Shown in pieces: positions 1-18,144 of a stretch of DNA of 38,870 nucleotides. The first letter of the stretch is position 1; each line of letters begins with the position of its first letter. Source of the DNA: Patescibacteria group bacterium (GTDB lineage: Bacteria > Patescibacteriota > Microgenomatia > UBA10105 > UBA927); NCBI GenBank assembly GCA_018821245.1, contig JAHJMO010000032.1, positions 1-38,870 of the forward strand, read 5' to 3'. Both the position numbers and the translations under genes were made by a program. The notes below the pieces were generated by a model. The model saw only the letters and a list, made by a program, of their open reading frames with translations. It was not told the DNA's origin and ran no database searches.

Positions 1-68
1 TCAACGTCACAAGTCGATCCAATATAATATTTCCCTCCTATTGATTTAAGTATATACACGCAGTGCAT
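1..68 (-). CDS. GIY-YIG nuclease-like ORF, partial (continues past window start)
   Basis: Minus-strand ATG at 68 encodes MHCVYILKSIGGKYYIGSTCDVD..., identical to the start of the ORF at 157-405; open to the window edge. Confidence 0.7.
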   Translation of the reverse strand, partial: MHCVYILKSIGGKYYIGSTCDV

Positions 69-176
69 ATTCGGCCTTGTCCCGACCCCGATACGATCGT
101 GGTCGAGGATCCTCGTCCCGTCTTTCGGGACGGGAAAAGGGCCGCGTCCTTGGCCGCTAGACGATGGCGCCAAATA
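1..176. repeat. Direct repeat copy 1 (176 bp; partner 338-513)
   Basis: Near-identical to 338-513 (one difference seen, T100 vs G437). Covers the start of the GIY-YIG ORF and its hairpin-rich leader. Confidence 0.95.
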
Positions 177-405
177 TAAGCTTGTCAATTGCTATCCTCT
201 TTTTCCATGACTTTATCTCTTTTTCCCGCTTCAATGTTTCAATTTTTGTACCATATTGCTCCGTATAAACGAGTCTCCATGGTCTATATGCTTTGGTTGA
301 TCGCACACTACCGTTATTGTGTTTGCATATCCGCTTATCAACGTCACAAGTCGATCCAATATAATATTTCCCTCCTATTGATTTAAGTATATACACGCAG
401 TGCAT
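157..405 (-). CDS. GIY-YIG domain small nuclease (YhbQ/UPF0213-like)
   Basis: ORF 157..540 trimmed to the Met of MHCVYILKSIGGKYYIGSTCDVDKRICKHNNG; GIY-YIG-type motif YIL...YYIG. The ORF track's 45-residue N-extension is translated hairpin leader. Confidence 0.8.
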   Translation of the reverse strand: MHCVYILKSIGGKYYIGSTCDVDKRICKHNNGSVRSTKAYRPWRLVYTEQYGTKIETLKREKEIKSWKKRIAIDKLIFGAIV

Positions 406-513
406 ATTCGGCCTTGTCCCGACCCCGATACGATCGGGGTCGAGGATCCTCGTCCCGTCTTTCGGGACGGGAAAAGGGCCGCGTCCTTGGCCGCTAGACG
501 ATGGCGCCAAATA
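338..513. repeat. Direct repeat copy 2 (176 bp)
   Basis: See 1-176; period 337 bp. Confidence 0.95.
470..508 (-). pseudogene. tRNA-Glu-like 5' half in GIY-YIG leader
   Basis: Minus strand GGCGCCATCGTCTAGCGGCCAAGGACGCGGCCCTTTTC resembles acceptor + D-arm + start of the anticodon arm of tRNA-Glu; no matching 3' half. A second copy lies at about 133-171. Confidence 0.55.
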
Positions 514-666
514 AAAATCTACTAATCTACAAATATACAAATCTACAAATATGTAAGAAAAAGCTCTTATATTTTAGCAAATAGCAAGGGAAAAAGGAAT
601 TTATACCGCCTAAAAGTGGTCTCGTTTGAAAATTAATAATTAAAAATTGAAAATTGAAAATTTAAA

Positions 667-6318: not shown

Positions 6319-7500
6319 ATGAAAGACCATCGCCCGCTTGCAGATATTCTTAGACCGCAAACACTCGATGAGGTTGTTGGTCAAGACCATCTCGTGGGGA
6401 AGTACGGTATTGTACGAAAGATGCTTGCCTCTGATTTTCTCCCTTCAATGATTTTCTGGGGACCGCCTGGATGCGGTAAGACCACCCTCGCCTATCTTCT
6501 GGCCTACCTCACCAACTCACGCTTCGTTCCTCAATCTGCAGTGACAACAACCTTATCAGAGGTCCGCTCAATCATAAAAGAGGCCGATAGGTTACTTAAA
6601 ACAACTGAGCGACGAACCGTTTTCTTTCTTGATGAAATGCATCGCTTTAACAAAGCCCAGCAAGACGCACTTCTTCCCCATGTAGAAAAAGGCACGATTA
6701 TTTTTGTAGGCGCGACCACCGAAAATCCTTCCTTTGAAGTAATCTCTCCACTGCTTTCCCGCTGCCGCGTTTTCGTGTTAAACCCATTAACCGGTGGCGA
6801 ACTAAAATTAATCGCCGACCGGGGATTAAAGTGTTTAAAGATGAAGATAAATAAAGATGCTTTAAATTTTTTGCTAGAAATTGCTAATGGTGATGCCCGC
6901 GCGATTTTAACTATTTTGGAAATCGCCGCACAGTTACAGCCTTTAAAGGCCAGGCTTTTAAAGGTAACAGATATCGAGGAAGCTGCGCAGCGGAAAACGC
7001 TGCAATACGATAGGGCTGGGGAGGAGCACTACAATACTATAAGCGCTTTTATAAAGTCGATGCGTGCAAGTGACGTTGATGCCGCGCTCTACTATCTGGC
7101 ACGGATGATAGAAGCGGGCGAGGATCCGTTGTTTATCGCCAGACGTATGGTCGTGTTTGCATCCGAAGACATCGGCATGGCACAGCCTACTGCGCTTGTT
7201 GTGGCTAATACTGTTTTTGATGCGTGTAACAAAATCGGGTATCCCGAGTGTCAGGAGAATTTAGCCCACGGGGTTGTATATTTGTCCCTCGCCAAAAAGG
7301 ACCGCAGTGCGTATGACGCCTATTTCAGGGCTCTTGAGGATGTCAAAGTATACGGAAATCTTCCCATACCGCTTCCTATACGTAACGCACCAACCAAACT
7401 TATGAAACATTTGGGGTATGGCAAAGGATATGAAAAATATCCGACAGAGAGTTTATTGCCTGATAGAATAAAGGGGAGGAAGTATTATAATGGTAAGTAG
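6319..7500 (+). CDS. rarA: Replication-associated recombination protein A (RarA/MgsA AAA+ ATPase)
   Basis: GPPGCGKTTLAYLLA, FFLDEMHRFNKAQQDALLPHVE, FVGATTENPSFEV. Confidence 0.95.
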   Translation: MKDHRPLADILRPQTLDEVVGQDHLVGKYGIVRKMLASDFLPSMIFWGPPGCGKTTLAYLLAYLTNSRFVPQSAVTTTLSEVRSIIKEADRLLKTTERRTVFFLDEMHRFNKAQQDALLPHVEKGTIIFVGATTENPSFEVISPLLSRCRVFVLNPLTGGELKLIADRGLKCLKMKINKDALNFLLEIANGDARAILTILEIAAQLQPLKARLLKVTDIEEAAQRKTLQYDRAGEEHYNTISAFIKSMRASDVDAALYYLARMIEAGEDPLFIARRMVVFASEDIGMAQPTALVVANTVFDACNKIGYPECQENLAHGVVYLSLAKKDRSAYDAYFRALEDVKVYGNLPIPLPIRNAPTKLMKHLGYGKGYEKYPTESLLPDRIKGRKYYNGK

Positions 7501-7504
7501 GTGC

Positions 7505-7627
7505 ACCCGCCTACGCTTACTTTGAGACTTTTGGAGTACTATTCGTACACGTCACAAAGAGCGCGTGAGCGGCGGGTCTAAGAAACTCTAAATTCTCGCT
7601 TAGGAAAGCGAATCATTAAGAGTTTCT
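7505..7627 (+). ncRNA. Candidate structured cis-RNA, copy A
   Basis: Nested helices ACCCGCC/GGCGGGT, ACGC/GCGT, CTTTG/CAAAG, GAC/GTC, GTAC/GTAC with TATTC loop, then AGAAACTCT/AGAGTTTCT; homologous to 16904-17013 with compensatory changes. Confidence 0.8.
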
Positions 7628-7645
7628 AAGAGGTGGTGATGAAGA

Positions 7646-7903
7646 ATGGATATCCAAATCGGTAAGGTAACGCATTATTACGACAAAATCGGAGTTGCAG
7701 TCGTTGACGTCGTCAAACAACCGTTAAAAGTTGGTGATACCGTTAAAATTTCTGGGCACGATAGCGAGTTTACACAGGCTGTTGGATCGTTACAAATTGA
7801 GCACGAAAAAGTTCCAAAAGTTGCGGCAGGGACTACCTGCGGAATGAAGGTAGATCAGCCGGTGAAAGAAGGCGACGCGCTGTATTTGGTCAGCCAAAAG
7901 TAA
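7646..7903 (+). CDS. Small beta-barrel protein resembling EF-Tu domain 2 (translation elongation factor-like)
   Basis: 85 aa: IGKVTHYYDKIGVAVVDVVKQPLKVGDTVKISGHDSEFTQAVGSLQIEHEKVPKVAAGTTCGMKVDQPVKEGDALY. Confidence 0.65.
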   Translation: MDIQIGKVTHYYDKIGVAVVDVVKQPLKVGDTVKISGHDSEFTQAVGSLQIEHEKVPKVAAGTTCGMKVDQPVKEGDALYLVSQK

Positions 7904-16903: not shown

Positions 16904-17013
16904 ACCCGCCTATGCTTACTTTGCGACTTTTCAGTATTATTCATACACGTCGCAAAGAGCGCATGAGCTGCGGGTTTAAGAAGCACTAAACTCAATAATC
17001 GTTAAGTGCTTCT
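16904..17013 (+). ncRNA. Candidate structured cis-RNA, copy B
   Basis: ACCCGC/GCGGGT, ATGC/GCAT, CTTTGCGAC/GTCGCAAAG, GTAT/ATAC with TATTC loop, AGAAGCACT/AGTGCTTCT; aligns with 7505-7627. Confidence 0.8.
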
Positions 17014-17028
17014 AAAAAAGGAGGGTCC

Positions 17029-18144
17029 ATGAAAATAACCATTTCCGTAATTAAGGCAGATACAGGATCAGTAGGCGGACACAACCGCCCAAGTGACGCA
17101 ATGTTTGACGAAGCTAAAGAGCGCGTGAAGGATGCCATAAAGAATCGGCTTTTGATTGACGGTAATGTCACGTATACAGGCGATGACATAGCACTTCTTA
17201 TGACGCATACACGGGGTGCGGACAATAGCGATATTCATAAATTTGCGTGGGATACATTTGTCGAAACGACCAAGGTCGCCAAAGGTCAGGGGTTATATGG
17301 AGCAGGACAAGACCTTCTCAAAGATGCTTTTTCAGGAAACGTGCGCGGCATGGGCCCGGGGAGCGCTGAAATGGAGATCGAAGAACGCACTGCCGAGCCA
17401 TTTATCGTATTTGCAGGGGATAAATGTGGTCCGGGAGTATTTAATCATGCGTTATTTTCCGCTTTTGCTGATCCCTATCATAACGCGGGCTTACTTCTGG
17501 CGCCTGACATGCGTGCAGGGTTTACGTACCGTATCATGGACGTCAATCACACAGAAAACGATAAAGTGATTACGTTGACGGTGCCACAAGACTATTATGA
17601 CGTCGCATGCTTACTGCGTGATCCCAATCGCTATATTATCGAATCCGTAGTCGAGAACGCGACAGGTTTAACGGCGGCTGTCGCCTCTACTAGCAGACTT
17701 CATAATATCGCAGGTAAGTATGTGGGCAAAGACGATCCGGTTGCAATAGTCAGGAGCCAGAAACAATTTCCCTCAACCGGAGAAATCCTATCACCGTGGG
17801 CAGTTGCTCAATACACGCTTGGCGATAATAGGGGATCGCATCATGTAGCGGTCATGCCGGTCAAACAGAATTCCATCATTTCATTTTTTGACGGTCCAAC
17901 TATTATGTCTGCAGCCGGGTACTGCGTTCATGAAGGCAGGTTAACAGAAGCTGTAGATCTCTTTGATCAGCCATTCTGGGATTTTATACGCGAAAAAGCG
18001 GCGAAGAAAACGCTTGCTATGCGCGAACAAGGATTCTTTAACCCGGCTATGGGACCGCAGGATGAAATGGAATACACAGGCGTGATGGAAAACCTGAAAC
18101 GTCTGGATGCAAAATTTGTGAAAGGTGACGATTCTGCCAAATGA
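17029..18144 (+). CDS. Fructose-1,6-bisphosphate aldolase/phosphatase (archaeal-type FBPase)
   Basis: MKITISVIKADTGSVGGHNRPS, GDDIALLMTHTRGADNSDIHKFAWDTF, GQGLYGAGQDLLKDAFSGNVRGMGPGSAEME. Confidence 0.94.
   Translation: MKITISVIKADTGSVGGHNRPSDAMFDEAKERVKDAIKNRLLIDGNVTYTGDDIALLMTHTRGADNSDIHKFAWDTFVETTKVAKGQGLYGAGQDLLKDAFSGNVRGMGPGSAEMEIEERTAEPFIVFAGDKCGPGVFNHALFSAFADPYHNAGLLLAPDMRAGFTYRIMDVNHTENDKVITLTVPQDYYDVACLLRDPNRYIIESVVENATGLTAAVASTSRLHNIAGKYVGKDDPVAIVRSQKQFPSTGEILSPWAVAQYTLGDNRGSHHVAVMPVKQNSIISFFDGPTIMSAAGYCVHEGRLTEAVDLFDQPFWDFIREKAAKKTLAMREQGFFNPAMGPQDEMEYTGVMENLKRLDAKFVKGDDSAK

Follow-up and report, generated by a model that had tools for sequence, protein, structure and literature searches.

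The structured element that follows rarA in the window (the whole 38,870-nucleotide stretch of contig JAHJMO010000032.1 analyzed here) is probably one copy, which we call copy A, of a dispersed, non-autonomous mobile palindromic repeat of the Microgenomatia that works much as the Rickettsia palindromic elements (RPE) do. Copies of this repeat form a family with a common structure, occupy sites that are empty in related genomes, and interrupt both RNA and protein genes. Regulation of the next gene cannot explain why copies lie in RNase P RNA, in reading frames, and in both orientations; a mobile palindrome can, because gene junctions, helix tips, and the surface loops of proteins are places that tolerate insertion in tight genomes. 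A sequence-only reading had proposed copy A as a novel cis-regulatory motif, and in so far as this meant a conserved, covarying structured element with many homologues, the proposal stands; the link to the downstream gene is not supported.

Two Copies of the Repeat in the Window

The window holds two copies of the repeat, A and B, whose parts and neighbors are listed here.

6319..7500, + strand: rarA (mgsA-type AAA ATPase), the upstream neighbor of copy A (Pfam MgsA_C, 1.5e-50)
7505..7577, + strand: copy A hairpin 1, the conserved core of the repeat (from the sequence; model R2, 85.8 bits, E = 2.4e-23 in its own genome)
7505-7511/7571-7577, 7513-7516/7563-7566, and 7520-7524/7555-7559: helices P1, P2, and P3 of copy A
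7526-7528/7551-7553 and 7536-7539/7545-7548: helices P3b and P4 of copy A, with loop TATTC at 7540-7544
7578..7630, + strand: copy A hairpin 2 (CUAAGAAACUC...GAGUUUCUAAG), variable and at times missing in the family (from the fold)
7581-7589/7619-7627: helix P5 of copy A
7646..7903, + strand: 85-aa EF-Tu-domain-2-like/U32 C-terminal-like protein, downstream of copy A
16904..16975, + strand: copy B hairpin 1, 4 nt past the gpmI stop codon (R2, 92.7 bits)
16976..17015, + strand: copy B hairpin 2 (UUAAGAAGCAC...GUGCUUCUAA) (from the fold)

The hairpin of copy A begins 4 nt downstream of the rarA stop codon at 7500, and helices P1 to P5, as originally drawn, are all present at these positions. Hairpin 1 is made up of P1, the UUA/AGC internal loop, the P3 stem, and an apical part that reads UUUUGGA-GUAC-UAUUC-GUAC-AC. 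The second copy was confirmed at 16904–17015, matching copy A with 86% identity across 91 nt (E = 2e-23), and its hairpin 2 terminates right before the ribosome-binding site of a fructose-bisphosphate aldolase/phosphatase gene (ATG at 17029; NF041126, 8.4e-151, slightly below the model cutoff). The 85-aa protein behind copy A has sub-threshold Pfam matches to GTP_EFTU_D2 (1.5e-4) and Peptidase_U32_C (6.9e-4). Separately, two overlapping ORFs at the contig end (window positions 3–540) carry the same repeated N-terminal sequence, GIY-YIG-like by eye, as the result either of duplication in tandem or of an end effect in the assembly.

Fold and Covariation

Both copies fold better than their dinucleotide shuffles (z = −2.96 for copy A and z = −4.96 for copy B), and in a search of Rfam 15 with both copies no family reached the gathering threshold, the weaker matches being chance ones; the original impression had been that the element resembles no familiar riboswitch class. 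Hairpin 1 is imperfect and approximately 72 nt long, and the two hairpins together span approximately 125 bp. In an alignment of 28 copies, 94.5% of cells pair, compared to 77.7% in shuffles and 30–45% in slid structures, and both sides have changed in 19 of the 24 pairs, with 101 double-change cells against 26.7 ± 4.4 in shuffles. The same picture emerges from 72 distinct copies (both-side changes in 23 of 24 pairs; 366 double-change cells against 113.6 ± 8.0), in an alignment that was fitted to the covariance model and is hence biased toward it. The compensatory changes first proposed from two copies thus extend through the family at a level far above that of shuffled sequences: stem sequence varies widely between copies, while the fold is kept.

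The TATTC loop and the TTA/AGC internal loop singled out in copy A prove to be conserved unpaired parts of the whole family, which comprise UUA facing AGC close to the base, UUUUCA facing AC under the tip, and the UAUUC loop, with CCUUA...GCGG as a variant tip. Hairpin 2 follows hairpin 1 in most operon copies, and is optional: of two near-identical rplL copies, one (L018) has hairpin 2 and the other (L019) lacks it, the gap falling exactly between two CTAAG repeats. In five copies (L092 2617-2708, L057 5734-5824, L100 70-158, L067 2569-2663, and L095 2249-2355) the apical loop holds a GC-rich palindrome, CCGCC...GGCGG, often together with GGACAGGC, which is a different small repeat nested inside the hairpin repeat.

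All structural conclusions rest on the corrected covariance model R2, as matches of the first model, R1, depend mainly on sequence and P1; the two agree where both were run (10 copies by R1 against 9–11 by R2 in the own genome of copies A and B). The genomes used were all assembled from metagenomes, and Ns occur in a few of the hairpin-2 stretches.

Internal and apical loops conserved within covarying helices, in an element with no Rfam match, are also what one would look for in a metabolite-sensing riboswitch controlling the downstream gene. We nevertheless regard such a riboswitch as extremely improbable, as the copies have no coherent regulon and no common expression platform (there is no U-tract, and the ribosome-binding site is free), hairpin 2 is dispensable, many copies are reversed or intragenic, and genomes of approximately 1 Mb carry as many as 19 of them. 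Caution is in order before such repeats are annotated as riboswitches.

Distribution across the Microgenomatia

The 1.08-Mb genome from which the window comes contains 10–11 copies by R2, and a pattern scan with the apical core recovers eight, against zero in the reversed-pattern control. A lack of further homologues upstream of genes was to have counted against the motif; the covariance models find many homologues across the Microgenomatia, often just before a ribosome-binding site. When the exact core was scanned against 85,462 genomes, matches fell almost only in Microgenomates-named records (Gottesman-, Levy-, Roizman-, Curtiss-, Woese-, Davies-, Collier-, and Blackburnbacteria) or in records unnamed at that level, and there were zero matches in 2.9 million viral contigs or in plasmid and phage records. 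In a sample of the phylum, 13 of 380 genomes match; 11 of these belong to the class of the own genome, and two (G157 and G271, with 2–5 copies) lie outside the Microgenomatia, where the copies were perhaps acquired by transfer or placed by wrong binning. Copies per genome range from 0 to 19 across the family and from 0 to 8 inside one genus (R1 counts). We count as evidence for a mobile repeat that the element is multi-copy, limited to a lineage, and present in numbers that differ widely between relatives. A literature search of open papers returned no account of this hairpin repeat of Microgenomates, which is apparently undescribed so far.

Gene Junctions and Orientation

The surroundings of 162 distinct flanked copies, counted approximately with a simple ORF caller, show 67 copies whose neighboring genes both run along the element, 33 whose neighbors both run against it, and 27 and 26 that are flanked by divergent and by convergent genes, respectively. 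Forward copies often start 3–8 nt past the upstream stop codon or overlap it, and are followed by a ribosome-binding site or by the 5′ end of the tmRNA. Among the genes behind them are rplL, ssrA, nusA, dnaK, bS21, groES, and a DUF4870-like gene (names partly assigned by eye), and rplJ>rplL, smpB>ssrA, grpE>dnaK, and HIT>bS21 (names read from the sequences) are recurrent junctions. Where a tRNA lies close on the right (12 copies), 11 of the 12 copies face its 3′ end and are thus reversed, and other copies adjoin the terminator of a convergent gene. Orientation is therefore biased, being forward between operon genes and reversed beside tRNAs. The upstream flank of the copies shows neither conservation nor −10 enrichment, which led us to reject the idea that a promoter of its own or a target motif precedes the element. 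Three copies adjoin a cobalamin riboswitch or sit at its margin (L114 4743-4973, L152 328-595, and L157 6864-7062), and one, on a Levybacteriota contig (L166 260-355), is located approximately 25 nt upstream of a 16S rRNA gene.

These positions bear on the possibility that the repeat is a cis-acting RNA element of operon 5′ leaders (an mRNA processing, stabilization, or translation enhancer element), with all other copies as by-products. In that case hairpin 1 would be the binding site of a protein, possibly a double-strand RNase, that determines where the downstream mRNA has its 5′ end. The many forward copies squeezed between a stop codon and the next ribosome-binding site are in keeping with this proposal, as is the fact that the products of rplL, ssrA, dnaK, and bS21 are probably needed in larger amounts than that of the gene upstream. 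However, approximately one-third of the copies between co-directional genes are reversed, most relatives have the same junction without a copy, and further copies lie within RNase P RNA and coding sequence, so that we consider this explanation unlikely. What an element regulating its neighbor would lead one to expect, namely a constant orientation before a coherent set of genes, is not what is seen; a tie to the EF-Tu-domain-2-like gene is likewise unsupported, with copies in both orientations beside unrelated genes, tRNAs, and terminators, and inside RNase P RNA, GlmS, and a membrane protein.

Filled and Empty Sites

The junction at which copy A lies is itself empty in most relatives. Among approximately 17 relatives checked, the junction between rarA and the EF-Tu-D2-like gene is filled in three (G000, G001, and G004), each time with both hairpins, the stop codon of rarA in G001 being provided by the element. 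Empty sites at this junction were compared by way of the rarA 3′ end, which in them approaches or overlaps the EF-Tu-D2-like gene's ribosome-binding site. The smpB/ssrA junction is likewise filled in three genomes; in others it is empty, with the smpB stop codon directly adjoining the 5′ end of the tmRNA. In four genomes, reversed copies at the gyrB 3′ end lie between 25-bp direct repeats of that 3′ end, which are identical at 19–22 of 25 positions. In these gyrB copies (L030, L085, L094, and L097), the last gyrB codons form the 3′ arm of hairpin 2; these codons differ between the genomes, yet in each of them the 5′ arm is a match to the 3′ arm.

Copies inside RNase P RNA and Protein Genes

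Rfam alignments place copies within RNase P RNA at P3, forward in L107 and reversed in the own genome and in L103, and at another helix in L037. The RNase P RNA of the own genome (G000:C5:38111-38559; L047 2540-3070) contains two copies: the one in P3 is reversed, and the other, in a later helix, runs forward. In the GlmS of L170 (TIGR01135, 4.5e-178), the element is read in frame as an insert of approximately 25–30 aa, which falls in the gap between two stretches that align to the solved enzyme. In G024, a reversed element is in frame within an 879-aa membrane-protein ORF, with a related segment in G026, and homologues of this protein in other genomes have a short loop without the inserted segment. 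The GlmS and membrane-protein inserts use the same strand and the same frame, giving xADxxxxEPSTNSSEKxxxKxRR. Antisense ORFs across several other copies were judged spurious, GlmS and the membrane protein being the exceptions.

We suggest that the repeat spreads as DNA by insertion, with its hairpin form probably being recognized by some enzyme, and that it would persist where it does no harm: immediately behind stop codons and ahead of ribosome-binding sites, next to terminators and the ends of tRNAs, at the helix tips of structural RNAs, and in the surface loops of proteins. On this view it would have no dedicated regulatory role. Copy A may still act locally on translation or mRNA stability.

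Candidate Mobilizers and Age of the Copies

Genes for RAYT-like Y1 transposases occur in 50 of 59 relatives, and REP elements are likewise intergenic hairpins, so that the repeat might be a REP-type palindrome moved by these abundant enzymes. Y1 gene number does not correlate with copy number among the relatives, however (G041 has seven copies and zero Y1 genes, G044 has 18 Y1 genes and zero copies), and by eye no Y1 gene was recognized among the listed gene neighbors of the copies, which makes this origin very unlikely. Reverse transcriptases are absent from most carriers. Both enzymes were rejected as the mobilizer for want of correlation with the copies, and none was identified among these candidates. 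Y1 (REP-type) genes are in their own right unusually common in the class (G044, G036, G010, G001, and others), reaching 18 per genome.

Copies within one genome are no more alike than copies from different genomes (0.668 and 0.669, respectively), and there is therefore no sign of recent bursts; a recent burst within the own genome is likewise unsupported. Same-locus copies from different genomes, by contrast with chance expectation, are nearest neighbors in 9 of 28 cases (1.0 expected), and compensatory changes preserve their pairing, an indication of constraint at the site. Taken together with the biased orientation, this indicates that many copies are old and that their fold has been kept where they stand, making a local role in transcript processing or translation a live rival. 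The excess likeness at shared loci, with pairing kept, also speaks for a cis-acting RNA; against one stands the finding that the loops on the element strand are equally conserved when the opposite strand is transcribed. Non-random orientation, absent recent bursts, same-locus likeness, and the lack of a mobilizer among the enzymes examined are what we count against a mobile repeat.

An RNA acting from one strand is expected to show a wobble bias of G-U over A-C. In the inner helices of the repeat, G-U outnumbers A-C by 44 to 31, compared to 60 to 18 in tRNA stems (Fisher p = 0.024). This weak excess and the equal loop conservation in copies forward and reversed to transcription fit recognition at the DNA level, and are suggestive rather than proof. 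Upkeep of the fold and retention across genera at rplL, nusA, and ssrA leave room for function, and a class-wide element that moves as a folded DNA hairpin and has been co-opted as an mRNA/RNA boundary or processing signal (before rplL, bS21, ssrA, nusA, and dnaK) and as an RNase P helix is a possible, if doubtful, reading. The RPE-like mobile repeat remains our preferred one.

Comparison with Known Systems

Small hairpin repeats inside an essential ribozyme and conserved proteins are best known from Rickettsia. A separate family in the uncultured, streamlined Microgenomates, with an elaborate fold and compensatory evolution in place, offers a natural experiment in the tolerance or use of small mobile hairpins by the genomes that carry them. 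RPE are hairpin repeats of 100–150 bp; some lie between genes, others interrupt protein genes in frame, and others are inserted in the genes for tmRNA and RNase P RNA (PMC2229807). The present repeat resembles them as a small palindromic hairpin of the ~100–150 bp class with many dispersed copies (~125 bp, 10–11 copies), through in-frame insertion in protein genes (GlmS of L170; the membrane protein of L105/L296), and through insertion in structural RNA genes (RNase P RNA in the own genome, L103, L107, and L037). It differs in its lineage, its complex conserved internal loops with heavy class-wide covariation, its frequent second hairpin, and its position beside, not inside, tmRNA. This likeness, drawn from descriptions of RPE, is one of kind, and we claim no descent.

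Correia/NEMIS, ERIC, RUP, and CIR are small non-autonomous intergenic repeats that are transcribed as hairpins, CIR having two arms and NEMIS hairpins in mRNAs being cut by RNase III (PMC2229807). The Microgenomates repeat is similarly small, non-autonomous, and found between genes, but shows no conserved terminal inverted repeats, TA ends, or flank, and has a deep structural conservation across genera. With REP/RAYT systems it shares being an intergenic hairpin in Y1-rich genomes, whereas its copy number is independent of Y1 genes, some carriers having none. Integron attC sites are also hairpins of conserved shape and variable stem sequence; unlike these, our repeat is, to judge by eye from its sequences, dispersed beside housekeeping genes, without cassette arrays or RYYYAAC/GTTRRRY boxes, and attC identity was rejected once the core boxes, sought by eye, were not found.

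Finally, large helix extensions in Patescibacteria RNase P RNA have already been noted (PMC8172020); here, at two positions of the own genome's RNase P RNA, such an extension turns out to be a dispersed repeat, and the repeat may explain some of the unusual RNase P RNA helix extensions in these bacteria.
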